Counted from the first letter of the stretch, positions 5,661 to 17,470 are shown. The stretch is DNA of 17,470 bases from Candidatus Korarchaeum sp. (GCA_020833055.1 JAJHQZ010000016.1:1-17470); one strand, 5' to 3'. Notes: generated by a model not told the origin, from the sequence alone. A program made the numbers and translations.

Positions 5661-5759
5661 GGAACCCTCGGAATCCCTTCCTCTACTTTATTGAATGATC
5701 GACGCATGAAATCATGGATCGCTCAAGTTTCATCCTTTGCATTCATTTCAGCAGTAATG

Positions 5760-5769
5760 GATTTATTAA
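5760..5769 (+). promoter_or_regulatory. TATA box of the glutamine synthetase gene
   Basis: GATTTATTAA is centred about 25 bases before ATG 5790 and supports that codon as the start of a leaderless message. The gap 5661-5789 between the glycosylase stop and this start holds no other gene that I can support. Confidence 0.5.
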
Positions 5770-5789
5770 GTGAGCGATCTCAGATTTTC

Positions 5790-7076
5790 ATGCTAGAGGA
5801 AATAATATCTAAGATATCGGAGGGGAGGATCAAGAGAGTTGAGCTCGAGTACGTAGACTTACTCGGTTACCTGAGGAGCTGCTTATTATCAGCTGAGAAG
5901 TTCCTGGAATCTAGAACAGGATCCTTCGATGCTAGTAGTGTCAAGATATCGAGCATAAGCGATAGCGATGCCCTCCTAATACCGGATCCTTACACATCGA
6001 TAGTGATAGGGGAGGACTGCAGGATGCTCTGCGAGATATGGGAGGGGATGGGGAGCAGGAGGTCGTCTAAAGATCCGAGATTCATCGCGAGGAGGGCCGA
6101 GGAATTCCTAATCTCACAGGGGTATAGAGGTCACTTAGGGGTCGAGATGGAATTCTTCGTCCTGGATGATGACTTGAAACCTATCTCGAATAGATGGAAC
6201 GGTAGGAAGAATTACATGATCTCGCCACCCCTCGATCCCCTCAGGGATTTTGAGATAGAGGCAATGGAGAGGCTGTCCAGAGCTCAGCTCAAGCCGGAGG
6301 TTATTCATCATGAGGTCTCGACAGGCCAGCTCGAAGTATCATTAGCTGCGGATAGCTTGATGAGGGCAGCTGACTCCACAATAAGGGCTAAGAGGGAGAT
6401 AAGGGAAGTAGCTAAGGAAATGGGTCTAATAGCGACATTCATGCCTAAGCCTGTCCCTGGGATGAATGGGAGCGGTATGCACTTTCACATGAGCTTATGG
6501 GATGATAAGGGGAACTTATTCTACGATCCGAATGATGGATACGCTGAGTTGAGTCAATTAGCTAGGTACTTCATAGGGGGCATCATAGAGCATATAGGCT
6601 CTCTCACAGCTATAGTCGCGCCCACTGTGAACAGTTACAGGAGGCTCTTACCCGGATTCGAGGCCCCTGTTTACGCGAGTTGGGGAAGGGGGAATAGGAG
6701 CGCTGCCATAAGGATTCCAGTTTACAAGAGAGGATCACCGATGTCGAAGAGGATAGAGTTCAGGGTACCGGATCCCAGCTGCAATCCTTACTTGGCCTTC
6801 TCAGCTACTTTCATGGCTGGTATAGACGGGATAAGGAGGAAGATAGATCCAGGGGATCCGACTGACTTCAATGTCTATGAGAGAAATGAGGGATTAAAAA
6901 GACTTCCTAGGAGTTTAAATGAGGCTCTTGATGAATTAGAAAGCGATAATTCCTACCTGAAACCTGTATTCGAGAGCGATACGCTGGAAAGTTACTTGGA
7001 GATGAAGAGGAGGGAAGTCATGGAACTTAGCCAGTGGCCGAGTGATGCTGAGTACGAGAGCTACCTCTCAGTATGA
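5790..7076 (+). CDS. glnA: Glutamine synthetase, type I
   Basis: 428 aa from ATG 5790. It joins ammonia to glutamate with ATP. The N-terminal beta-grasp begins MLEEIISKISEGRIKRVELE and covers about 1-95. Catalytic motifs follow: VEMEFF (Glu119, Glu121, metal site), GQLEVS (Glu182), GSGMHFHMSLW (His231/His233, metal and ATP), NSYRRLLPGFEAP (Arg284, glutamate), GRGNRSAAIRIP (ATP and phosphate) and RIEFRVPDPSCNPY (Glu323). I see no adenylylation-loop tyrosine motif, so control by adenylylation is unlikely. An in-frame TTG at 5691 and ATG at 5706 would add a 28-33 residue tail with no family counterpart; the TATA box 25 bases before 5790 and the family start pattern favour 5790. It shares a neighbourhood with the putative 2-oxoglutarate-forming operon. 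Confidence 0.93.
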   Translation: MLEEIISKISEGRIKRVELEYVDLLGYLRSCLLSAEKFLESRTGSFDASSVKISSISDSDALLIPDPYTSIVIGEDCRMLCEIWEGMGSRRSSKDPRFIARRAEEFLISQGYRGHLGVEMEFFVLDDDLKPISNRWNGRKNYMISPPLDPLRDFEIEAMERLSRAQLKPEVIHHEVSTGQLEVSLAADSLMRAADSTIRAKREIREVAKEMGLIATFMPKPVPGMNGSGMHFHMSLWDDKGNLFYDPNDGYAELSQLARYFIGGIIEHIGSLTAIVAPTVNSYRRLLPGFEAPVYASWGRGNRSAAIRIPVYKRGSPMSKRIEFRVPDPSCNPYLAFSATFMAGIDGIRRKIDPGDPTDFNVYERNEGLKRLPRSLNEALDELESDNSYLKPVFESDTLESYLEMKRREVMELSQWPSDAEYESYLSV

Positions 7077-7088
7077 TTCGACTATCAT

Positions 7089-7136
7089 CTAAATACTTTA
7101 AGGCGGATCGGAGTTCCTCATGCATCAAACTTATAA
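7089..7136 (+). promoter_or_regulatory. Two TATA-like boxes before the surface protein gene
   Basis: CTAAATACT (7089-7097) lies about 26 bases before in-frame ATG 7120. TTATAA (7131-7136) lies about 26 bases before the ATGATG pair at 7159/7162. Each could drive a leaderless message from its own start codon. The second gives the more typical signal peptide. Confidence 0.4.
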
Positions 7137-7158
7137 GTCCCTCCAGCTCGGCATATCG

Positions 7159-8715
7159 ATGATGCCCAAGAGCTTACATATCTCCCTCTTGATATCCCTG
7201 CTGACCTTGAGCCTCATCCCGGTCTCCGCGGTCGATTTCGACATAAGCATATCGCCGACTTACGCTAAGATAAGAGCTGGAGAGACAGCTAGCTTCACAG
7301 TGAGACTGATAAAGCTTAATCCGGCTTTCTCAAATGATGTATACCTCACGGTCTTCTATGAGCCTCCGTATAGTTCTGTCAGCTTTCTCGACAATCCTCT
7401 CAAGCCAGGAGTCGTCGAGACAACGATAATGAATGTGATAACTTCTGAGAAGACTCCTCCAGGGACCTACACTATAACTGTTAGGGGAAGGGATACGACA
7501 GGAGCATCAGTTTACGAGGAAGTGACACTAGAAGTCCTACCACCGGAGCCCCAGTTCATCTTATCTATATCCCCATCCAGACTATCCGTTTACAGAGGCG
7601 AGAGGGCTAACTTCACAGTTTACGCAACTCCGACATATGGATTCGTGGGCCCGATATACCTGAAGCTGATATGCCCCCTCTGCACATCCTATGTATTCAC
7701 CCCCAATCCCATGTGCCCCACATGTCCTCCCTCATACTGTCCAGCGCTGCCCTGCGCTTACTACTCCTCGACGCTCTCCATAGATACTTCCGGCATGGCC
7801 CCAGGGGATTACAGCGTAGTAGTCGAGGGGTGCAGCGGAAGCTCATGCTACAGAGCTTATGCGACTCTAACTGTCTTAGAGGCTCCCAGGCCTGAGAACA
7901 TAAATTTAATAGTTTATCCACTGACTCTAGTCGTGAAACCAGGGGATAACGTCAAGGTAGATGTGACGATAAGCATCCCAGGTGGCAAGAGCCCGGATCC
8001 CCTAACGCTCAGGGTCTACGCACCACAGGGCTGGTACTTGAGTTACTACCCGACGAAGTTCTACGAGACTTCCACAGTCCAGTTGTGGATCTCAGTACCC
8101 AAGGGCACGCTACAGGGGACCTATAACATAGGGATCGAGTTATACAAAGGGGAGACACTCTTGAAGAGCAGGAGCGTTGTAGTAATTGTGAAGGGAATTG
8201 AACAAGCTAAAATATCGGTATTTGTCGCTCCTTACGAAGTAATACTGACGAGAGAATATCCTAAGGCCCAGATAGCTGTATTAGTCACTTACAGTGGGGA
8301 GATAGAGGATGTCACTCTCTCCCTACTCGGACTGCCCACTGGGATAAGCTATTCCATACCACCGAAGCTCAAACCGGGACAATTGGGGGTAATAAACTTG
8401 ACATTGACTGATGCTAAGGAAGGGAATTATTCAGCATCTCTCGTCGCGACTATAGATGGGTTATCGGCATCTACTAATTTCAGGGTGATCGTCAAGGGTG
8501 TTCAAGCTGAGGCTAAGACGACTACGCTCACCGAATCTACTACTTTAACTGAAACGAAGAGAGAGACCGTTACTTTGACAGTTGAGAGGGGTCTCGCAGC
8601 TACGGACTATCTGCTGATAGCTATAGCTTTCCTCCTGCTGGTCCTCATATTAGCATTACTGCTCAGGAGAGGCGCCGGAGGTGTTGCTCAGGCTCCCGGA
8701 AGCACTCAAGCGTGA
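7159..8715 (+). CDS. Secreted, membrane-anchored multi-domain (Ig-like) surface protein with Cys-rich domain
   Basis: 518 aa from ATG 7159. A signal peptide (basic, then LLISLLTLSLIPVSA) is followed by four beta-rich Ig/NEW3-like repeats, each opening with a strand and a G-E/D turn: about 26-127, 132-240, 247-346 and 351-452. The second repeat holds eight cysteines (about 172-230, including CPLC and CPTC) while the others hold none, suggesting disulfides or a metal site. A Thr/Glu stalk (TTTLTESTTLTETKRETVTL) leads to one transmembrane helix near 481-502, two arginines and a short Gly/Ala tail. This is the layout of an archaeal type I surface protein; the ligand is unknown. ATG 7120 gives a longer N-terminus. 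The next gene begins 7 bases after its stop, so they are probably co-transcribed. Confidence 0.75.
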   Translation: MMPKSLHISLLISLLTLSLIPVSAVDFDISISPTYAKIRAGETASFTVRLIKLNPAFSNDVYLTVFYEPPYSSVSFLDNPLKPGVVETTIMNVITSEKTPPGTYTITVRGRDTTGASVYEEVTLEVLPPEPQFILSISPSRLSVYRGERANFTVYATPTYGFVGPIYLKLICPLCTSYVFTPNPMCPTCPPSYCPALPCAYYSSTLSIDTSGMAPGDYSVVVEGCSGSSCYRAYATLTVLEAPRPENINLIVYPLTLVVKPGDNVKVDVTISIPGGKSPDPLTLRVYAPQGWYLSYYPTKFYETSTVQLWISVPKGTLQGTYNIGIELYKGETLLKSRSVVVIVKGIEQAKISVFVAPYEVILTREYPKAQIAVLVTYSGEIEDVTLSLLGLPTGISYSIPPKLKPGQLGVINLTLTDAKEGNYSASLVATIDGLSASTNFRVIVKGVQAEAKTTTLTESTTLTETKRETVTLTVERGLAATDYLLIAIAFLLLVLILALLLRRGAGGVAQAPGSTQA

Positions 8716-8722
8716 TACCCGG

Positions 8723-9517
8723 ATGCTCAAGCTCGAGGATATCAGGAAATTAATAAACTCTATTTTAGAGAGTGAAGTCCTGAGCAGAGGGATGAGATTC
8801 AGACTACCTGCCCCCGTAGCAGTAGGAGGAGCGGAAGATCCCCTCTGGACTGAGATAAAGCTCTTGCATCCTTGGATGAAGACGCCTCAGGAGCTCTTGA
8901 GTGGGGCGAGGAGTGTCGTGGTGTTCGCCCTCCCAATAAGTGATGAAGCGATAAGAAGTAATATCAGCGGGGATGAGCCGTCTTTCGAATGGTTAAGAGA
9001 TTACGTTGCTGCTAATGAGATTCTATGGAATGCCTCTTGTAAATTAGCGGATTATCTTAAGAATTTAGGTTACAAGAGTTTACCTCTAAGACCGACGCAC
9101 GACTTCGATAATGTAGAACTTAGATCGAGTTGGAGCCACAGGCACGCAGGTTACGTCTGCGGCTTGGGGACCTTCGGCTTGAACAACTTACTCATAACTG
9201 AGAGGGGCTGTGCTGTTAGAATATGCACAGTCATAACTGAGGCCCTTATAGAGAGATCGGAGAGGCCCAGGCATGAGTACTGCTTAGCTAAGCTCGGTTA
9301 CAGTTGCGATGCTTGCTTGAGGAGATGCCCTATAGGGGCTTTAAACGATTGGAAGTCGATGAAGGGGAAATGTTATGAGAGATTACTCTCTTTCTCTGAA
9401 AAATGGCCAATTCTAGGGGAAGCTGATGCTTGCGGCAAGTGCTCCGTCGGTATCCCGTGCGCTACCCAGATCCCGAGGTTGTACGAAAATCGTAATAGAA
9501 AGATCGCTATGATTTAG
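8723..9517 (+). CDS. QueG-like protein with two [4Fe-4S] clusters
   Basis: 264 aa. The central part matches epoxyqueuosine-reductase-like proteins: HRHAGYVCGLGTFGLNNLLI (about 139-158) and ERGCAVRICTVITE. Iron-sulfur ligands are Cys195, Cys198 and Cys202 (CDACLRRCPIG), Cys217, and Cys237, Cys240 and Cys246 (CGKCSVGIPC). The second motif is spaced C-x2-C-x5-C, as in archaeal relatives of QueG rather than bacterial QueG, so epoxyqueuosine reduction should not be assumed; an electron-transfer or reductase role is a safer call. The start ATG 8723 has GTGAT (8712-8716) 6 bases upstream, overlapping the stop of the surface protein gene; an earlier in-frame start at 8681 would overlap that gene. The stop is followed by a T run at 9538-9542. 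Confidence 0.85.
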   Translation: MLKLEDIRKLINSILESEVLSRGMRFRLPAPVAVGGAEDPLWTEIKLLHPWMKTPQELLSGARSVVVFALPISDEAIRSNISGDEPSFEWLRDYVAANEILWNASCKLADYLKNLGYKSLPLRPTHDFDNVELRSSWSHRHAGYVCGLGTFGLNNLLITERGCAVRICTVITEALIERSERPRHEYCLAKLGYSCDACLRRCPIGALNDWKSMKGKCYERLLSFSEKWPILGEADACGKCSVGIPCATQIPRLYENRNRKIAMI

Positions 9518-9537
9518 ATTGGTTCGATCTTCGTATA

Positions 9538-9542
9538 TTTTT
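9538..9542 (+). terminator. T5 run, possible archaeal terminator
   Basis: TTTTT in an A/T-rich setting (TATATTTTTC) lies 21 bases after the QueG-like gene and before the strong promoter of the citrate-branch operon. Archaeal RNA polymerase can terminate on short T runs without a hairpin; no hairpin is seen here. Confidence 0.4.
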
Positions 9543-9555
9543 CGCATCTGCTGAA

Positions 9556-9573
9556 CGAAATGCTTATATATAA
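9556..9573 (+). promoter_or_regulatory. Strong BRE plus TATA promoter for the citrate-branch operon
   Basis: CGAAA (9556-9560) resembles a transcription factor B recognition element and is followed by TTATATATAAT (9564-9574), the best TATA box in the window. The expected transcription start is about 9591-9595, leaving a leader of roughly 70 bases before the TTG at 9663, unlike the mostly leaderless genes around it. Confidence 0.6.
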
Positions 9574-9600
9574 TTCCTAATCCCGTATCCCAAAACTATC

Positions 9601-9636
9601 GAATCGATTCACGTTATACGTCTATGTAACATCGAT
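9601..9636. repeat. Cluster of short palindromes in the operon leader
   Basis: Directly after the expected start of transcription come GAATCGATTC (9601-9610, perfect), ACGT-TAT-ACGT (9611-9621), ATGT-A-ACAT (9624-9632) and ATCGAT (9631-9636). They could be protein-binding sites controlling the operon or a weak RNA fold. No known riboswitch is recognised. The leader also contains a minimal ATG-TAA at 9624-9629. Confidence 0.35.
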
Positions 9637-9662
9637 CTCTTGAACTGTGAGGGGGATGAGAA

Positions 9663-10943
9663 TTGAGATGGTACGAGTGGTTCTTCCCCGAGCTGGATAT
9701 ACCTAGGTTAGCTAGGAGGCTCCCCTCACATGACCTAGTGATAACAGATACTACTCTGAGGGACGGTCAGCAGGGGAGCAGGCCATTCAGCAAGGATGAG
9801 TGCATCAAGATATACTCTATCCTATCAGAGCTAGACAGTGGGAGCGGGGTCATAAGGGATATAGAACTATTTCCATACACACCGAAGGATAGGGAAGTAA
9901 TAAAGGTCCTCAGGGATTTCGGGACTACGCCAAATCCTATAGGGTGGGTCAGGGCGAGAATTGAGGATCTGAAGCTCGTGAAGGAGTGCGGCCTAGATAC
10001 TACGGTGCTCCTCACTTCAGTCTCCGATTACCATATCCACTACAAGCTAAAGATGAGCAGGACTGAAGCCAGGGAGAAGTTCTTATCAGCGATAAGGGAG
10101 GGCTTGAGGATGGGATTGAGGCTCAAGGTAGCTATGGAGGACATAACTAGATCAGATATTTACGGCTTCGTCCTCCCATTCATAGAGGAAATCTTGAGGA
10201 TCTCGGAGAGGGAAGGAGGGGAGGTGAGCTTCAAGATCTCGGATACCTTGGGCCTAGCCCTCCCCTTTCCGGAATCTCCCCTTCCTAGAGGGGTTCCCAG
10301 GCTCATAAGAGTTCTTATAGAGGAGATGGGATTGAGAAGCGAGCAGATCGAGTTCCATGGTCACAACGATTTTCACCTAGTTGTAGCGAACCATCTGGCT
10401 GCTTGGCTCTACGGTGCCTCTATATCGAACTGCACGCTCATGGGCATAGGGGAGAGAGCGGGCAACTGCCCTCTCGAAGCTATAGCTATAATGCACTCAC
10501 AACTATCAGGAGAGAGGAAGCTCAATCTCAAGGCATTGAGTAAAATAATAGATGTATTCAGTGAGATGGGATTCAGGATACCGGAATTCTATCCCATACT
10601 CGGGGAAAATGCGTTCAAAACTAAAGCGGGGATTCATATAGATGGTTTGCTGAAGAATCCAGCTATATACCTTCCGTTCGATCCAGCTATCATCGGGAGG
10701 CCCTATTCGATTGAGATCTCACCCTACTCCGGGAGGTCTGGGATAATCTACTGGCTGGCGAGGAAGCTCAATATCGAGGAATGGGAGAGCCTGAAGGAGG
10801 ATCCCAGAGTGGAGCTAGCCTATAGGGAGATGCTCAAGATCTTCGAAGAAGGGAGGACTGAGCCATTGAGTGAAGAGGAAGCTCTCTCCCTCCTCAAGAA
10901 GTACTTCCCGGAGCTCTCTGAGGTGAGTGAGTTATGCCGATGA
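9663..10943 (+). CDS. Re-citrate synthase-type protein (isopropylmalate/homocitrate synthase family)
   Basis: 426 aa DRE-TIM metallolyase. The barrel has DTTLRDGQQ (29-37, catalytic Arg33 and metal Asp), ED (159-160) and HGHNDFH (232-238, metal His pair), then GIGERAGN (261-268). Several stretches match Re-citrate synthases rather than leucine-pathway enzymes: DGQQGSRPF in place of DGEQSPG, VIRDIELFPYTPKDREVI, LTSVSDYHIHYKL and EDITRSDIYGFV. There is no LeuA C-terminal regulatory domain. The predicted reaction is acetyl-CoA plus oxaloacetate to citrate; homocitrate or isopropylmalate synthesis is the alternative. Start TTG 9663 follows a GAGGGGG tract; two ATGs nearby (9656, 9668) are out of frame, and an in-frame stop at 9657 excludes an earlier start. 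First gene of the operon. Confidence 0.85.
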   Translation: MRWYEWFFPELDIPRLARRLPSHDLVITDTTLRDGQQGSRPFSKDECIKIYSILSELDSGSGVIRDIELFPYTPKDREVIKVLRDFGTTPNPIGWVRARIEDLKLVKECGLDTTVLLTSVSDYHIHYKLKMSRTEAREKFLSAIREGLRMGLRLKVAMEDITRSDIYGFVLPFIEEILRISEREGGEVSFKISDTLGLALPFPESPLPRGVPRLIRVLIEEMGLRSEQIEFHGHNDFHLVVANHLAAWLYGASISNCTLMGIGERAGNCPLEAIAIMHSQLSGERKLNLKALSKIIDVFSEMGFRIPEFYPILGENAFKTKAGIHIDGLLKNPAIYLPFDPAIIGRPYSIEISPYSGRSGIIYWLARKLNIEEWESLKEDPRVELAYREMLKIFEEGRTEPLSEEEALSLLKKYFPELSEVSELCR

Positions 10944-11857
10944 CTATGTCCGAGAAGGTATTATCGAAGAAGGCTGGCAGGAGAGCATATCCCGGGGAGC
11001 ATATAGTCGCGGACGTCGATCTAGTTTACGCCCATGACGGGACGGCGCCTTTAACTATAGAGATGATCGAGGAGCTAGGGCTGAGGGAACTGAGGAGCAG
11101 AGCTATATTCGCGATAGACCATGCATCTCCGCCCCCCAATGTGGATGCTGCCGCTAATCACAGGAGGATGAGGGACTTCTCCTCCAGATGGGGCGTGAGG
11201 ATCTTCGATGTAGGGGAGGGGATCTGTCATCAAGTGATCCCGGAGAGGGGATTAGTTAAGCCCTGGGATCTAGTCATAGGGGCGGATAGTCATACAGTGA
11301 CTCTAGGAGCCCTAGGAGCTTTCGCTACCGGAGTGGGAAGTACAGACGCTGCTATAGCGATGCTAACTGGGAAGATCTGGCTCAAAGTACCTGAGAGTAT
11401 CGCAGTTAAGGTAGATGGCACTCTGAAGAACTATGTCACAGCGAAGGATGTGATCCTAGAGGTCATAGGGAAGCTGGGTAGCGATGGAGCGAATTACAAA
11501 GCTGTTGAATTCTTGGGATCTGCAGTGGAGGCTATGAGCCTCGACTCCAAGATGGTCCTAACTAATATGAGCGCCGAGATGGGAGCTAAGGTAGCTATGA
11601 TACCGACGGATGGGAGGACCTCAGAATGGCTGAAGGAAAGGGTGGGCCATTTCGAGGGTATATGGCCGGATGAGGAAGCTAATTACTCGGCATTCTATGA
11701 ATTCTCAGCTGGGGAGATAAAGCCCAACGTCTCCCTCCCTAATAGCGTGGATCGCGTAGCCCCAGTTGAGGAAGTCGAGGGGGAGGAAGTGGACTTAGTG
11801 TTCATAGGCTCGTGCTCAGGGGGAGGTTCGAGGACTTCCTATTGGCCTCTAGGATAA
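10934..11857 (+). CDS. Aconitase/LeuC-type hydro-lyase large subunit, N-terminal part (frameshifted)
   Basis: 307 codons, covering about two thirds of a LeuC/homoaconitase-type large subunit. DHASPPPNVDAAANH (62-76), GADSHT (116-121) and ATGVGSTDAA (131-140) are family hallmarks. The frame runs to GSCSGG (Cys294, first [4Fe-4S] ligand), then changes to unrelated residues and stops at 11857. The rest of the protein continues in the -1 frame (next entry). Read through, the gene would be 443 aa, near the family norm. In context it should isomerise citrate to isocitrate; isopropylmalate or homocitrate are alternatives. Start ATG 10934 has GAGGTGA 7 bases upstream and overlaps the previous gene by 10 bases; ATG 10940 is a second option. 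No LeuD-type small subunit gene is in the window. Confidence 0.85.
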   Translation: MPMTMSEKVLSKKAGRRAYPGEHIVADVDLVYAHDGTAPLTIEMIEELGLRELRSRAIFAIDHASPPPNVDAAANHRRMRDFSSRWGVRIFDVGEGICHQVIPERGLVKPWDLVIGADSHTVTLGALGAFATGVGSTDAAIAMLTGKIWLKVPESIAVKVDGTLKNYVTAKDVILEVIGKLGSDGANYKAVEFLGSAVEAMSLDSKMVLTNMSAEMGAKVAMIPTDGRTSEWLKERVGHFEGIWPDEEANYSAFYEFSAGEIKPNVSLPNSVDRVAPVEEVEGEEVDLVFIGSCSGGGSRTSYWPLG

Positions 11858-12264
11858 TGAGGGGGAGGAAGTTGAAGGAAGGGGTTAGATGCATAGCGGT
11901 ACCAGCATCTAAGGAGGTTCAGATGAAACTCATCGATTCCGGCCTTATGAGATCGCTCCTGGAGTTCGGTTGTACGGTAGGCCCTCCCACATGCGGGCCA
12001 TGCATAGGGGCTGTAATAGCCTCTAGCTTCGCTAGGATATTCTACAGGAATGCTGTGAACGTAGGTCTGCCGGTGATAGAGGCTGAGATAGAAGCCGATC
12101 AATGGGATATAGTCAAAGTGTATCTTGAGGAGGGGAAGATAGAGAATATCACAAAATCCCTCGTCTTCACTTTCAAATCTTTCCCCAGGGAGATACTGGA
12201 GATATTCGAGGAGGGCGGCATCGTGGAGTACTTCAGGAAGAGGGGTAAGTTCCCCTGGGAGTGA
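11812..12264 (+). CDS. Aconitase/LeuC-type hydro-lyase large subunit, C-terminal part (frameshifted)
   Basis: Continuation of the same gene in the -1 frame after the G run. It begins in the family motif GRFEDFLLASRIMRGRK and contains VPASKEV and PPTCGPCIGA, whose two cysteines (codons at 11992 and 12001) are the second and third [4Fe-4S] ligands. It has no start codon or Shine-Dalgarno of its own, so it is not an independent gene. Its TGA is 5 bases before ATG 12270 of the dehydrogenase gene. Confidence 0.85.
   Translation: MLRGRFEDFLLASRIMRGRKLKEGVRCIAVPASKEVQMKLIDSGLMRSLLEFGCTVGPPTCGPCIGAVIASSFARIFYRNAVNVGLPVIEAEIEADQWDIVKVYLEEGKIENITKSLVFTFKSFPREILEIFEEGGIVEYFRKRGKFPWE
11819..11823 (+). 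other. Frameshift site in the hydro-lyase gene (run of five G)
   Basis: The family motif GSC(T/S)xGR(L/F)EDL is recovered exactly only if the five-G run had six G: Ser-Gly-Gly-Arg-Phe-Glu-Asp-Phe. As written, the frame breaks here. A missing G in a homopolymer points to a sequencing error or a slippage mutation. Programmed -1 slippage is possible, but no classical heptamer is present. Confidence 0.85.
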
Positions 12265-12269
12265 TAGGG

Positions 12270-13265
12270 ATGAGGATAGCGGTGATAAAGGGGGATGGTG
12301 TCGGACCTGAGATAATGGGGGCAACTCTATCCCTACTCGAGAGGTATATTGAAGCAGATTTCATTGAGATAAAAGCCGGAAAATCTTATTTCATTGAAGA
12401 AGGAAAGCCAATTGAGGATAATGCTATTGAAAAAATAAGAGGATGCGATTCACTTCTCAAGGGTCCAGTAGCTACTCCAACGAAGGGCCCAAGTTATCCT
12501 AGTGTCAACACACTTCTGAGGAGGGAGTTCAAGCTATACGCGAACGTGAGGCCCTTCAAGAGCTACGAGGGTATCTCGATTAGGAGGATCGACACGATAT
12601 TAGTGAGGGAGAATCTGGAGTGCCTTTACTACGGATGGGAAGTGGAGGATGAGGATAGGGCTATAGCGATGAGAGTCATAACTAAAAGGGGTGCTGAGAG
12701 GATCTCAGAATTCGCATTCAATCTAGCTAAGAGGGAGGGGAGGAGGAGGGTGACCGCCATACATAAGAGGAACGTACTCAAGAGGACGGATGGCCTCTTC
12801 CTAGATGCCTTCTATAGAGTGGCATCTAAGTTCGATCTGAGTGCTGATGATGAAATAGTGGATGCGGCCGGCTATAAATTGGTCAAACTGGATAACGCTT
12901 TCGATGTGATGGTCGCCCCTAACCTCTATGGGGACATACTATCCGATGTAGCAGCGGGAGTAGTGGGAAGCATAGGGCTCTGCGGTTCAGCTCAAATAGG
13001 TGAGGATTTCGCAGCATTCGAGCCCATCCATGGTACTGGAGAGGATATAGCTGGGAAGGGGATAGCAAATCCCATAGGGATGATAATAGCAGCCTCAATG
13101 ATGCTGGATTGGCTTTGGGAGAGAGGAAGGAGCCCTAAGAGAGGGGAAAAGATAAGGGAAGCAATAGACTCCGTGATAATGGACAGGATACTCACTCCAG
13201 ATCTGGGAGGTGACTTCAGGACGGAGCAAGTCGTGGAAAAAATAGTGGATAGGTTGAGGGACTAG
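12270..13265 (+). CDS. NAD-dependent isocitrate dehydrogenase-type beta-decarboxylating dehydrogenase
   Basis: 331 aa from ATG 12270. Family features: GDGVGPEI (8-15), RENLECLYYG (113-122), Lys166, the metal aspartates in NLYGDILSD (218-226) and the nucleotide loop HGTGEDIAGKGIANP (254-268). The substrate helix reads PSVNTLLRREFKLYANVRP: Ser78-x-Asn80 is the pair that binds the gamma-carboxylate of isocitrate, as in mitochondrial NAD-IDH (SMNLLLRK), and is absent in isopropylmalate dehydrogenases. Asp259-Ile260 replace the Lys-Tyr pair of NADP enzymes, so NAD is the expected coenzyme. The product would be 2-oxoglutarate, CO2 and NADH. Homoisocitrate is the alternative substrate. A GTG at 12261 would overlap the previous stop; ATG 12270 matches the family N-terminus. 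Confidence 0.88.
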   Translation: MRIAVIKGDGVGPEIMGATLSLLERYIEADFIEIKAGKSYFIEEGKPIEDNAIEKIRGCDSLLKGPVATPTKGPSYPSVNTLLRREFKLYANVRPFKSYEGISIRRIDTILVRENLECLYYGWEVEDEDRAIAMRVITKRGAERISEFAFNLAKREGRRRVTAIHKRNVLKRTDGLFLDAFYRVASKFDLSADDEIVDAAGYKLVKLDNAFDVMVAPNLYGDILSDVAAGVVGSIGLCGSAQIGEDFAAFEPIHGTGEDIAGKGIANPIGMIIAASMMLDWLWERGRSPKRGEKIREAIDSVIMDRILTPDLGGDFRTEQVVEKIVDRLRD

Positions 13266-13819
13266 CCCCTCCCGTAGAGGCCGATTAGTTGAGCCTCCCC
13301 TATGACATGCCCCTTCATCGCTCTCTCAACATCCCCTCTTTTAGCTCCGGGCGGCAGATCCAATTTCGTATCGAGAGCGTATAACTTGAAGAAATACCTG
13401 TGAGGTTTCCCTCTCGGAGGGCAAGGACCACCGTAACCGTATGCCCCGAAATCGTTCCTCCCCTGATACCCATACTTGACCTCCTTCCCCCGGGGCACTC
13501 CCTCGGGGAGGGAGTTGAGGTCTCCCGGTATGTTGTAGAGGACCCAGTGAGTGAAGGTGCCCGCAGGAGCGTCTGGATCGTCTACTATGAGGACGTAACT
13601 GACAGTCCCCTCCGGCTTCCCCTCCCAACTCAGTGGCGGGGATATGTCATCACCGTCGCAAGTGTACTTCTTAGGTATAGTCTCATTATTGTTGAAAACA
13701 GACCTCAGGGTGAAGTTCCCCATAACCTTCCCCCCACGCCTAGATCCGCCAAGACCCCATAAAATTAGAGCTATCAGTAGGATAGCTATCAGCAGGAAGA
13801 TGAGGGATCTCGACTTCAT
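13262..13819 (-). CDS. Membrane-anchored PEBP (YbhB/YbcL, Raf kinase inhibitor-like) protein
   Basis: 185 aa. Residues 1-22 are a hydrophobic anchor or uncleaved signal (SLIFLLIAILLIALIL) followed by basic GGSRRGGK; no lipobox Cys is seen. The PEBP domain follows: SPPLSWEG, DDPDAPAGTFTHWVLYN (80-96) and GYGGPCPPRGKPHRYFFKLY, which form the anion-binding pocket. Bacterial and archaeal members are of uncertain function; protease inhibition and ligand binding are proposed. The stop overlaps the dehydrogenase stop in the palindrome CTAG (13262-13265). A TATA box about 27 bases upstream predicts a leaderless transcript separate from the nuclease gene behind it. Confidence 0.92.
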   Translation of the reverse strand: MKSRSLIFLLIAILLIALILWGLGGSRRGGKVMGNFTLRSVFNNNETIPKKYTCDGDDISPPLSWEGKPEGTVSYVLIVDDPDAPAGTFTHWVLYNIPGDLNSLPEGVPRGKEVKYGYQGRNDFGAYGYGGPCPPRGKPHRYFFKLYALDTKLDLPPGAKRGDVERAMKGHVIGEAQLIGLYGRG

Positions 13820-13824
13820 CCAAT

Positions 13825-13851
13825 CTTCCGGAAGTACGGGGAGATAAACTT
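13825..13851 (-). promoter_or_regulatory. Promoter of the PEBP gene with a palindrome
   Basis: Read on the minus strand, AAGTTTATCT (13851-13842) is centred about 27 bases before ATG 13819. A perfect 10-base palindrome CTTCCGGAAG (13825-13834) lies between the TATA box and the start, overlapping the expected initiation region, a position suited to a repressor. Confidence 0.45.
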
Positions 13852-14458
13852 AACTCCTCGATGTGATTAACTCAGCCCATCCCTTAACTTGGACGTAATC
13901 CTTAGCCCACTTCGGGATCTTACCCTTGCTTCTCATATCCTTTAAGAGACTTCCGAGCTTATCTGGGGTGATCCCGAGTATAGAAGCTGCTTCTAAGAAG
14001 TCAGAAGATCTAGCTATAGCTCTCAATATCTCGATATCCCTCTCGTCCAATTCAGATGGGTATAAGATAGATGGTAGTACTTCCATCAACGCGGATCTAA
14101 CTTCCTCCCTCACGATCCACCTCAACTCCTCTGGGTCAGATATCATTAAGTCATCGAGGGCTATGACCTCTATTCCGAGCTCCTTAGCTAGAGCCTCAGC
14201 GGCAGCGTCAGAGAACCCCCTGCAAACTATAAGAGGCTTTAAGTTCAGGAGGAGAGCATTAACATAAGCTTGCCTAACTCCACCCACATCAAGCTTCCCA
14301 TTCTTCACTTCAACAGCGTAAAGCTCTCTTCCTTTCTCAACTATTAAGTCGACATCGCTTATCTCATATCCCCCTACTCTCACTGGTACTAGCTCAGCTC
14401 TTATCTCGAATCCCCTAGATCTCAAGATAGATTTAGCAGCGGATAGTGAGCTCCTCAT
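13850..14458 (-). CDS. PD-(D/E)xK nuclease-fold protein with C-terminal helical/wHTH domain
   Basis: 202 aa. The N-terminal domain has the restriction-endonuclease core: GYEISDVDLIVE (Asp37), then LYAVEVKNGK (Glu50-x-Lys52) and Gln63 in the next helix. It is therefore a candidate metal-dependent nuclease, as in archaeal RecB-like small nucleases. Residues about 70-100 complete the fold (LKPLIVCRGFSDAAAEALA). The C-terminal part, from about 140 (DERDIEILRAIARSSDFLEA), looks like a winged-helix or similar DNA-binding module. The ATG follows the TGA of the KaiC-like gene after a single base, so the two are coupled. A role in DNA repair, recombination or nucleic-acid defence is inferred from fold and partner only. 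Confidence 0.75.
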   Translation of the reverse strand: MRSSLSAAKSILRSRGFEIRAELVPVRVGGYEISDVDLIVEKGRELYAVEVKNGKLDVGGVRQAYVNALLLNLKPLIVCRGFSDAAAEALAKELGIEVIALDDLMISDPEELRWIVREEVRSALMEVLPSILYPSELDERDIEILRAIARSSDFLEAASILGITPDKLGSLLKDMRSKGKIPKWAKDYVQVKGWAELITSRS

Positions 14459-14459
14459 A

Positions 14460-15227
14460 TCACTTCACCAAGACGATCCCCTTCCCACTCTCAACTTCGA
14501 AAGTCAACCATTCTGTCCTGTGCTTTGATCCACTCATCCTCCTGACCCTGATCTGCTTGACTAGAGCGTTATTCACTACCTCCGGATTGAACCTGAGGTC
14601 TATTACACCATCCGAGAAGACCTCTATCTGGAACCTGAAGTCATCGTAGAATCCGAAGTGAAAGCTGTATATGATGGGGATCCCGTAGTACCTGCAGAGT
14701 AAAGCTTTAGCTGTCTTCATGAGATCTAGGAGTATTGAAGCATCAGGAGCTATCGTGAGGAATTCTGTCATAGAATCTATTAGGACTACTCCTCTTCCCT
14801 TAATTTCCTTAGCTCTGCTGAATATCTCCTCCCACACGCTCTCAGGGTTCCTAGGATCCTCAGCCTCTATCACGCTCTCCTCGAGGTAGGGCTCTATCTC
14901 GATATCGAAGCCCCTCAGCCTGTAGGAGAAGCAATCCAAGAACTTGAGCTTCCCCTCCTCTAAGTATCTCCTGATATCGAAACCTAGGGCATCGAAGCTC
15001 AAGATCCTGGAGAAAGGTAGGTCCTCGAGTAAGACGAAGAGGACATCTTCTCCTCTTTGTAAGAACCTGTAAGCTAATTCGTTCAGTATGACGCTTTTCC
15101 CAGTTCCAGTCTCACCGAAGATGCCAATGAGACTCCCTCTGATCATTCCATCTGGTATTAAAGCATCTAACGGCTCCAACCCTAACTTAATCCTCTCCAA
15201 GCTGTCACCTATCCACTGACTCATCAC
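14460..15227 (-). CDS. KaiC/RAD55-like RecA-superfamily ATPase
   Basis: 255 aa, single RecA-type domain. Walker A is GETGTGKS (38-45), LLEDLPFSRI follows the second strand, and Walker B is GVVLIDSMTE (146-155). IIYSFH near 185-190 is the sensor strand. The C-terminus has the KaiC-type pair VRRMSGSKHRTEWLTFEV, contacting the neighbour's ATP in hexamers. Single-domain archaeal KaiC/RAD55-like proteins are linked to recombination, signalling or motility depending on context. The gene order here (nuclease after, methyltransferase before) favours nucleic-acid work but does not prove it. Start is GTG 15227 with GTGAT (15240-15236) 8 bases upstream, or the adjoining ATG 15224. Confidence 0.88.
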   Translation of the reverse strand: MMSQWIGDSLERIKLGLEPLDALIPDGMIRGSLIGIFGETGTGKSVILNELAYRFLQRGEDVLFVLLEDLPFSRILSFDALGFDIRRYLEEGKLKFLDCFSYRLRGFDIEIEPYLEESVIEAEDPRNPESVWEEIFSRAKEIKGRGVVLIDSMTEFLTIAPDASILLDLMKTAKALLCRYYGIPIIYSFHFGFYDDFRFQIEVFSDGVIDLRFNPEVVNNALVKQIRVRRMSGSKHRTEWLTFEVESGKGIVLVK

Positions 15228-15236
15228 AATTATTAA

Positions 15237-15881
15237 TCACTTCCTCACTACCGCTACGTGATTCTCAGCGAAGAATCTCGATCTAAAGCTCCTCTTATGG
15301 TACTTAATCTCAGAGAATCCCGCCTTCCTCAGGAGGGAGAGGAACTCCGATCTCGTGAATAAGTGATAATAACGCATGAAGACCCTCTCCCCCTTCCTCC
15401 AAGGTACGTAGACATCGCGGAAATTCCCACCTTTTATAAAATTCAAGAACATTTCAGGGAATTTTTTGAAGAATCTAGGTTGAAAAAGAGCCCAAACAGA
15501 TATTATCGCCTTCCCACCATCCTTCAAGACCCTCCTGACTTCCATAAGAGATCTCAAGCGGAGATCGTCCTCGAGATGATGTAATGTAGCTATGTAAAGT
15601 ACTGTAGAGAAGGATCCGTCTCTGAAGGGTAGGAAAGCTGCATTGCATTGGACTCTCTCCCCTGAAAAAATCCTAGAGGCTACATTGAGCATCCCCAAAG
15701 ATATATCAGCGCATATCACCTCAAAACCTCTCTTCATTAGGTAAGAAGCATTTCTACCGCTTCCGCATCCTAAATCGAGGACGGGTCCTGAGTCTACGAG
15801 TTCAACCTCAGGCCAAGGTCTCGATCTGAGGTGAAAGTAACTTTCCGCGATCTCGTCATATACCCTCGCTATCTCGCTCAT
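15237..15881 (-). CDS. Trm9/ABH8-like SAM-dependent tRNA methyltransferase
   Basis: 214 aa. Class I methyltransferase: LDLGCGSGRN (35-44) binds SAM and HHLED (101-105) is motif IV-V. Three stretches are typical of the Trm9 family, which methylates carboxymethyl groups on wobble uridine 34: IARVYDEIAESYFHLRSRPW at the N-terminus, FRDVYVPWRK (155-163) and RYYHLFTRSEF (170-180). The likely role is therefore tRNA wobble-uridine modification; a general methyltransferase is the fallback. The partner Trm112 is not in the window. ATG 15896 is a longer alternative start; ATG 15881 matches the family N-terminus and has an A/T-rich element about 26 bases upstream. The stop is 9 bases before the KaiC-like gene. 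Confidence 0.83.
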   Translation of the reverse strand: MSEIARVYDEIAESYFHLRSRPWPEVELVDSGPVLDLGCGSGRNASYLMKRGFEVICADISLGMLNVASRIFSGERVQCNAAFLPFRDGSFSTVLYIATLHHLEDDLRLRSLMEVRRVLKDGGKAIISVWALFQPRFFKKFPEMFLNFIKGGNFRDVYVPWRKGERVFMRYYHLFTRSEFLSLLRKAGFSEIKYHKRSFRSRFFAENHVAVVRK

Positions 15882-15902
15882 ATCACAACTAACCATACAA
15901 TC

Positions 15903-15910
15903 AAATTAAC
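15903..15910 (-). promoter_or_regulatory. Possible TATA box for the methyltransferase-ATPase-nuclease group
   Basis: GTTAATTT on the minus strand is centred about 26 bases before ATG 15881. It is a weak match but is the only A/T-rich element at the right distance in the 15897-15968 gap. Confidence 0.3.
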
Positions 15911-15954
15911 GGCGGCTCTATAACTATCTCTGAAGGGAAGCTTTGGGCTTCAGC

Positions 15955-15959
15955 AAAAA
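15955..15959 (-). terminator. T5 run after the dehydrogenase gene, possible terminator
   Basis: On the minus strand CTTTTTG occurs 9 bases after the stop of the saccharopine-dehydrogenase-like gene. A small hairpin (GAAGC/GCTTC, 15937-15951) follows. This may separate that gene from the methyltransferase operon. Confidence 0.35.
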
Positions 15960-15968
15960 GAGTGAGGA

Positions 15969-17120
15969 TTAGGTAGATGGGGGTATCACCCTGGACTCCG
16001 TCACTCTCTCAACTATCCTGATACCCCTCCAGGAGAGCCATTCTGCCATGAGGGCGAAGAGGTTCTCATCCATCCCGATAACTTCAGGAGGTAGCACGCC
16101 AGGGCCTGGGATAGAGCCCTCAGCGATCAACTTAACTATACCTGTCGCGAAGAAGGCAGTAGTCCTAGAGAGCGCTGTCAAACCAGTGGTCTCATCGTAT
16201 CTATCTACCATCCTGTACTCTATCTCCATGTTGCTGGGGCTCCTCCTACCCTTAGCTTGCACTATCAAAATGACTAAGTCTTTGGAATCTCCCTTGAGCC
16301 TCTCCTTGAATAACTTAGCAGTCAACTGAGCTGGAGATATGCTATCATTACTCGATATCGGCTCCTTACTGAAGTAGCCCAGTGTCCTCAGGAGCTCTAT
16401 CTTCTCCGCGTGCCCCGGCCATCTTAGCGTCTTCTCCGCCATGAACTCAACTCCCTTCAATGTCCTCAACATGGTCCTCAACCCATCCGTCAGGAAAGCT
16501 TCTAATTCCCCTACTTCAGGTACGTATAACCTCTCTAGATCGCTCAGAGCTGGTTTCTTCATCAGAGATCCGTTCTCGATCAATCTAGCATCTCTAATGT
16601 ATTCCTCTATTAGGTCCTCGGGGCTCCAAGTCACTAAATAGCCTAGAGGGGGGATCGGCCTCTCAGGGATACCCCCAACATATATCTTGAGTTCCCTCAC
16701 TTCCTCGAGTTGAGCGTAAGCCCTCCCAGCCATCATATTGCTGAGCCCGGGGGCGACACCGGCGTCGGGGACTATGGTCACGCCCGCCTCACCTGCTTGG
16801 ACGTGATAGTACATCGGATCGTCCTCAGAGTAAGATACATCGACTAAATCTGTCTTGGCCTTTATAGAGGCCACCCAAGAGAGCTTCCCGAACCTCCCTG
16901 GGAGGGAATTAACAGCTATGTCCACATCCTTCATTATCCTGTAAAAATCGTCTACATCCCTCAACTCCACTCTCTTAAACTCCGCTTTACCCGCTATTTT
17001 AGATGCTGCCTCTAGATTCGAAGGGTTCGCGTCCACTACCAGGAGGTTGGATCCCGTCACCCTCTCATAGAGATCGTATATTATCGCCTTTCCAACTGAA
17101 CCAGCTCCTAAAACTGCCAC
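15969..17120 (-). CDS. Saccharopine/lysine dehydrogenase-like oxidoreductase
   Basis: 383 aa. The N-terminal Rossmann fold starts AVLGAGSVGKAI, with an acidic NAD-type residue in LLVVDANPSN (29-34). NSLPGRF (71-77), DLVDVSYSEDDPMYYH (91-106) and PDAGVAPGLSN (118-128) are the family segments seen in saccharopine dehydrogenases and in the archaeal/bacillar lysine 6-dehydrogenases. The C-terminal half holds a typical catalytic domain with IYVGGIPERPIPPLGY. Lysine deamination or saccharopine cleavage are the main options; I cannot choose. Start GTG 17120 removes the first residue of the usual RVAVLGAG strand; a stop at 17144 leaves only ATT 17126 as a longer option, and GAGGGGTG sits 7 bases before that ATT. 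Confidence 0.85.
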   Translation of the reverse strand: MAVLGAGSVGKAIIYDLYERVTGSNLLVVDANPSNLEAASKIAGKAEFKRVELRDVDDFYRIMKDVDIAVNSLPGRFGKLSWVASIKAKTDLVDVSYSEDDPMYYHVQAGEAGVTIVPDAGVAPGLSNMMAGRAYAQLEEVRELKIYVGGIPERPIPPLGYLVTWSPEDLIEEYIRDARLIENGSLMKKPALSDLERLYVPEVGELEAFLTDGLRTMLRTLKGVEFMAEKTLRWPGHAEKIELLRTLGYFSKEPISSNDSISPAQLTAKLFKERLKGDSKDLVILIVQAKGRRSPSNMEIEYRMVDRYDETTGLTALSRTTAFFATGIVKLIAEGSIPGPGVLPPEVIGMDENLFALMAEWLSWRGIRIVERVTESRVIPPST

Positions 17121-17160
17121 CCTAATGGGAGGACACCCCTCTCATACACCACTAGGGGGA

Positions 17161-17170
17161 TACTTATAAG
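17161..17170 (-). promoter_or_regulatory. TATA box of the dehydrogenase gene
   Basis: CTTATAAGTA on the minus strand predicts transcription from about 17139, giving a leader of some 13-20 bases before the coding start and including part of the purine-rich GAGGGGTG. Confidence 0.5.
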
Positions 17171-17209
17171 CTTTAGCTGATCAATGAGCCAGCGAGTTAC
17201 GTAAAAATG

Positions 17210-17470
17210 TTAAACGTCTTCCTCCATCCCCAGATACTTGCGGACTAGCTGATAGTAGTTCTCAATGCTCCCATACCTCTCTATGAAGCTCTCCATTATA
17301 TCGTAACCGTAATTCCTCTTGAAGAGCTCCCTACCCTCTTCAGTCATATCGGCTGGAGTCCAAGGTGGATAATTTATCAGCTCAACCTTAACTTCCTCCA
17401 CCTCCGGGATCGCTTGCTTAATGCTTTCCTCAACTATTCGAAGCAGAGTCATGGAGTAGGGGCAACCTGG
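17210..17470 (-). CDS. MIP18/PaaD-like (DUF59) iron-sulfur assembly protein, C-terminal part
   Basis: The frame stays open to the window edge, so the N-terminus is missing; 86 residues are visible. The first visible residues PGCPYS and the following PPWTPADMTEEGRELF are the conserved Cys turn and the Pro-Trp motif of the MIP18/PaaD family, which helps insert [Fe-S] clusters. VEEVKVELINYPPW is the strand before it. The C-terminal 35 residues (YGYDIMESFIERYGSIENYY) form a helical tail beyond the usual domain. An internal ATG at 17452 is not the real start because the Cys motif precedes it. It ends 61 bases after the promoter of the dehydrogenase gene begins, so it is a separate unit. Confidence 0.78.
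   Translation of the reverse strand, partial: PGCPYSMTLLRIVEESIKQAIPEVEEVKVELINYPPWTPADMTEEGRELFKRNYGYDIMESFIERYGSIENYYQLVRKYLGMEEDV

Follow-up and report, generated by a model that had tools for sequence, protein, structure and literature searches.

The operon on the plus strand at 9556-13265 of the window, the whole 17,470-nucleotide stretch of Candidatus Korarchaeum DNA analyzed here, belongs to a family of gene modules that, judged from sequence, most likely supply 2-oxoadipate for LysW-dependent lysine synthesis, and it appears to be decaying in this genome. Such a module would elongate a 2-oxoacid by means of a condensing synthase, a hydro-lyase of two subunits and an oxidative decarboxylase, converting 2-oxoglutarate and acetyl-CoA through homocitrate and homoisocitrate to 2-oxoadipate. 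Its synthase would have been recruited from the Re-citrate-synthase lineage rather than from the usual LysS lineage. We infer with moderate confidence the substrate, the pathway and the cell's dependence on lysine from the linkage of the module to LysW genes in relatives, its coexistence with classical citrate synthase, a changed substrate pocket, and the loss of the LysW cluster in the same genome that carries the damaged operon.

The operon is tightly packed and spans 9563-13265, with all features on the plus strand. By direct reading, a putative archaeal TATA-like box, CTTATATA (9563..9570), lies about 100 bp 5′ of the first gene. This gene (9663..10943) is intact, starts with TTG and encodes a 426-aa DRE-TIM 2-oxoacid/acetyl-CoA condensing synthase of the HMGL-like family (PF00682, 138 bits). 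The hydro-lyase frames overlap its 3′ end, beginning with the 5′ part of a homoaconitase/aconitase-type large subunit (10934..11857; TIGR02086, 361 bits, positions 1-296 of 411), which falls in the archaeal isopropylmalate/homoaconitate large-subunit group. The last gene (12261..13265, starting at GTG 12261 or ATG 12270) is an intact beta-decarboxylating dehydrogenase of the Iso_dh family (PF00180, 272 bits), with a Ser-Val-Asn motif (PSVNTLLRREF) and the Asp-Ile cofactor pair in GEDIAGKGIANP, just as the sequence-only reading had described it. All NCBIfam matches of the operon frames lie under their curated cut-offs, and the hydro-lyase and dehydrogenase score below every aconitase and isocitrate dehydrogenase equivalog cut-off. 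The top-scoring equivalog models for the dehydrogenase are homoisocitrate ones, yet these too stay below cut-off. Relative to G010, a genome of the same genus assembled as a single 1,590,757-bp contig, dN/dS is 0.09 for the synthase and 0.13 for the dehydrogenase, and both genes remain under constraint.

The hydro-lyase, by contrast with that of G010, is broken. All four operon genes are intact in G010, whose synthase is 97% identical to that of the window and whose hydro-lyase subunits measure 415 aa and 164 aa. In the window, ORF 10934-11857 loses the reading frame in its GSC motif (~11824), family position 296 of 411, where one A is missing from the GSCSGGR motif (11823..11824; GGGGGAGG in the window, GGGGGAAGG in the aligned G010). 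The large subunit continues to CGPCIGA in a fused ORF (11812..12264), a single frame that matches NF001614 positions 301-365 and then NF040625 positions 79-158, the C-terminal half of the small subunit. This fusion results from a deletion of ~397 bp between two copies of the 10-bp sequence GCATAGGGGC in G010, of which a lone copy (12002..12011) marks the junction. The deletion removed the small-subunit GSSREH site, and this motif is absent in every frame of the window. Thus, the compact operon proposed from the sequence alone is real but not intact: an aconitase-superfamily large subunit is present where a LeuC-type one had been named, but its gene is frameshifted and fused to a small subunit that had not been listed and of which only the tail is left in the window. 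With the hydro-lyase broken, an oxidative citrate route cannot run from the operon in this genome.

It is quite unlikely that the breaks are assembly errors and that the operon, whatever its substrate, is intact in the living cell. The deletion ends do fall within a 10-bp repeat, and the breaks are read from an assembly, with one genome per species. Against this, over ~10.9 kb aligned to G010 the only other clear intragenic frameshift is at 9478, where a 1-base indel alters the last residues of the upstream gene (8681-9517) at its C-terminal end. Furthermore, a second lysine locus decays independently in the window genome. The 16-kb lys region of G010, which carries lysYZWXJK elsewhere in that genome, maps to two flanks on a single window-genome contig (C8), between which 85 bp stands in place of the 4.44 kb that contain lysYZWXJ and the beginning of lysK. 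The lysK remnant contains an internal stop and is spread over three frames at 81-95% identity. Decay at two unlinked lysine-related loci makes a pure assembly artefact less likely, and presents the window genome as one in which a biosynthetic pathway is being lost at both.

LysX was not found in the window genome, which is the exception among synthase-bearing genomes of the genus; this co-loss is observed in one genome. Together, the hydro-lyase breaks and the deletion of the LysW cluster suggest that the cell probably imports lysine. The window genome holds three DRE-TIM genes: the window synthase, the leu-operon LeuA, and a LeuA-like paralogue of ~500 aa on contig C11 (L049:4967-6451), which also occurs in G001 (L135). 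The paralogue adjoins LeuA on the synthase tree, lacks the catalytic Arg (DSTLTLGE instead of DTTLRDGE) and both metal-binding His, and from these residues is probably non-catalytic. Since the other two are LeuA and this paralogue, no candidate for homocitrate synthase is seen apart from the window type.

The link between the synthase module and the LysW cluster is found in relatives of the window genome and not within the genus itself. In G022, a genome of the same family, lysK-lysJ-lysX-lysW is divergent from lysY-lysZ-synthase-large-small-dehydrogenase, with only a few bases between lysZ and the synthase frame. The Desulfurococcales genome AUK064 has the arrangement lysJ-lysX-lysW divergent from lysY-lysZ-Lrp-synthase-large-small-dehydrogenase, in which an Lrp-type regulator gene is inserted. 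The two synthases are sisters, so the LysW linkage counts as one event on the tree. As in the LysW-dependent alpha-aminoadipate pathway of Thermus, Sulfolobus and Thermococcus, both genomes cluster a synthase, a LysT/U-type hydro-lyase and a dehydrogenase with LysYZWXJ(K) (PMC3356886, PMC10433800). Unlike in that pathway, the synthase lies outside the LysS clade and the dehydrogenase carries Ser-x-Asn. It may be added that G022 (L045) and AUK064 (L051) belong to different orders; a near-identical lysine cluster with sister synthases across orders suggests that the whole cluster moved by horizontal transfer.

Other LysW clusters qualify this association. Genomes of the G001 type encode an ArgX-type and a LysX-type ligase within one operon, which implies a separate lysine role. 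In G019, a LysW cluster lies beside genes reading as argG, argH and carAB without the synthase operon, indicating that arginine clusters do not regularly include this operon. The LysW cluster of G025 carries the same LysX motif, but that genome has neither an aconitase-family nor a dehydrogenase-family gene, and so LysX with this motif can occur in the absence of the 2-oxoacid elongation route. As proof of a lysine role, the LysX motif HWITNTARG had to be downgraded: it also occurs in Thermococcus LysX, reported to be bifunctional (PMC10433800), and in the arginine-linked LysX of G019.

Annotations routinely confuse Re-citrate, homocitrate and isopropylmalate synthases. The window synthase was placed in a maximum-likelihood tree of 81 synthases. 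It forms a clade with Korarchaeum-type and Desulfurococcales sequences (100/99), whose sister comprises sequences from Clostridia, Nitrososphaerales and Methanomethylicota (98/96); those from Chloroflexi and methanogens branch outside both. The window clade is nested in a Re-citrate-synthase-like family on starred branches (100/98 to 100/99), and Re-citrate-synthase-like proteins are the closest non-archaeal kin of the window synthase. In this tree, the window synthase lies outside LeuA/IPMS, NifV, the C. kluyveri-like aconitase-linked group and the LysS clade, to which the lysine homocitrate synthases 6ktq and 3a9i belong. The Re-citrate-synthase affinity claimed from the sequence alone is therefore borne out by the tree, where the family label rests on taxonomy, gene context and the two-clade description in PMC12016533, the tree itself holding no experimentally proven member. 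Several Clostridia relatives (~40% identity) adjoin an aconitate hydratase (NF005558, 913 and 987 bits against a cut-off of 612) or an NADP isocitrate dehydrogenase that exceeds the NF006156 cut-off; with these neighbors, the wider family is credibly Re-citrate synthase. A conserved order is also apparent in Clostridia (L059:6315-6971, L063:6242-6937, L058:6335-6973), where a GntR-like regulator comes after the Re-citrate-synthase-like gene and precedes an NADP isocitrate dehydrogenase or aconitase gene.

As far as can be told, the Re-citrate synthases of Dehalococcoides, C. difficile and Heliobacteria, which have been grouped as one type (PMC12016533), belong to the same DRE-TIM subfamily as the window synthase. 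The window clade shares with them a Trp at the position of Thermus His72, and differs in having V/I-K/R/M-A/S/T where they have an invariant G-R-H, as well as in its LysW linkage in two genomes. The Clostridium kluyveri type (e.g., L093) follows the same synthase-aconitase-IDH plan, but at ~32% identity it forms a separate clade beside NifV and has the pocket W-A-S-N.

The substrate pocket sets the window clade apart from the remainder of its family. In Thermus homocitrate synthase numbering, the pocket was read at positions 72, 92, 133 and 135, of which 72, 133 and 135 have roles in 2-oxoglutarate binding in the published Thermus structure. The pocket is W-G-R-H in 29/29 other family members and in 0/19 members of the window clade, which instead have W-V/I-K-A, W-V-R-S, W-V-R-A or W-V-M-T; the residues of the window protein itself are W95, V115, K155 and A157. 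Lysine homocitrate synthases have H-A-R-T, H-D-R-S or Y-V-R-T, and the small A/S/T at position 135 of the window clade resemble this lysine type. Whether or not a genome has classical citrate synthase, the pocket is altered in the same way. The 29 pocket-invariant relatives and the 19 changed ones offer a natural comparison for the residues that set the 2-oxoacid. The Trp at the Thermus His72 position was dropped as an oxaloacetate marker, since NifV-type homocitrate synthases also have it. The dehydrogenase of every operon examined, LysW-linked ones included, has Ser-x-Asn, which is the isocitrate dehydrogenase pattern; the homoisocitrate dehydrogenase of Thermococcus (compared through the PDB 5hn3 sequence) has Ser-x-Ile, and that of Thermus has neither. 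In the dehydrogenase tree, the operon enzymes form their own clade, a placement that is not decisive.

The genomic background bears on whether the operon replaces citrate synthase. The window genome (1.39 Mb, 99.5% complete) contains no classical citrate synthase (PF00285), as the sequence-only reading would require, and outside the operon the aconitase family is represented only by leuC and leuD, beside leuA and leuB on contig C2. PF00285 is absent from five operon-bearing genomes of the genus (G000, G005, G010, G011 and G012), and none was seen in G007 at 78% completeness. Nine others (G001-G004, G006, G008, G009, G014 and G015) have PF00285 together with the operon, a coexistence not expected if the operon only replaced citrate synthase. 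Some clostridia do have both kinds of citrate synthase (PMC6115520). A full AcnA-type aconitase is present in 6/9 of these PF00285-bearing genomes, several of which also have a second, longer isocitrate dehydrogenase. Genomes G001-G015 of the genus thus fall into two groups, one that has classical citrate synthase, often together with AcnA and the longer isocitrate dehydrogenase, and one that has none of the three. In genus genomes of either group from which the whole stretch was recovered, the operon genes are open, the operon being cut by contig ends in the fragmented genomes G004, G006, G007 and G009.

The sequence-only reading had assigned the operon to an oxidative branch, in which Re-citrate synthase, aconitase and NAD isocitrate dehydrogenase would produce 2-oxoglutarate for glutamate. 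This is a real though minor possibility for the operon, whose copy in the window is broken. The nesting of the synthase among Re-citrate-synthase-like proteins, the aconitate hydratase and NADP isocitrate dehydrogenase neighbors of its ~40%-identity relatives, the Ser-x-Asn of the dehydrogenase and the five genomes lacking classical citrate synthase all favor it, and another archaeon, Ignicoccus, has been cited as a user of Re-citrate synthase (PMC12016533). These points are countered by the LysW linkage in relatives, by the nine genomes that keep the operon beside classical citrate synthase, and by pocket residues that are changed in 19/19 clade members whichever citrate synthase complement they have. 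Moreover, a glutamate-dehydrogenase-family gene in both G000 and G010 provides another likely source of 2-oxoglutarate, and the glutamine synthetase (5691-7076) invoked as support is not adjacent to the operon and adds none. An operon devoted to making 2-oxoglutarate from oxaloacetate, which the broken hydro-lyase also contradicts here, is therefore not upheld; the earlier call was right about the family, as the tree nesting and the Clostridia neighbors attest, wrong about gene integrity, and probably mistaken about function. A citrate branch is not to be inferred from family membership alone, and gene context and co-loss point to lysine. The lysine role has its own difficulties, namely the isocitrate-type Ser-x-Asn, a synthase outside the lysine homocitrate synthase clade, and the G025 LysW cluster that occurs without the module, and some citrate activity may possibly exist besides it.

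A bifunctional module that converts oxaloacetate to 2-oxoglutarate, and with the same enzymes carries this on to 2-oxoadipate, would serve both glutamate and lysine. It would reconcile an isocitrate-type dehydrogenase and Re-citrate-synthase ancestry with LysW linkage and a variable pocket, but genomes with classical citrate synthase have no need for it, and we regard it as rather improbable. A broader proposal, in which the archaeal clade represents a Re-citrate-synthase lineage in the midst of a change of substrate, with the operon making both 2-oxoglutarate and 2-oxoadipate, is doubtful; if true, homocitrate synthase would have had two evolutionary origins within LysW-type lysine synthesis. 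That the operon is a second leucine-pathway (isopropylmalate) operon is extremely unlikely. All of its families do fall within the LeuA/LeuC/LeuD/LeuB superfamilies, but a complete leuA-leuC-leuD-leuB set already exists on C2, separate in the genome and in separate clades, the tree parts the operon synthase from IPMS on starred branches, and PSVNTLLR of the operon dehydrogenase corresponds to REVILPLR in the C2 LeuB.

Two further features of the region can be noted. A saccharopine-dehydrogenase-like gene (15969-17120; PF16653 and PF03435, with no NCBIfam match) lies near the operon on the opposite strand. Synonymous divergence from G010 (window 6587-17470 against L031) is patchy: dS is 0.03-0.16 in the operon and the gene after it and rises to 0.58-0.74 further downstream, which suggests recombination between lineages.
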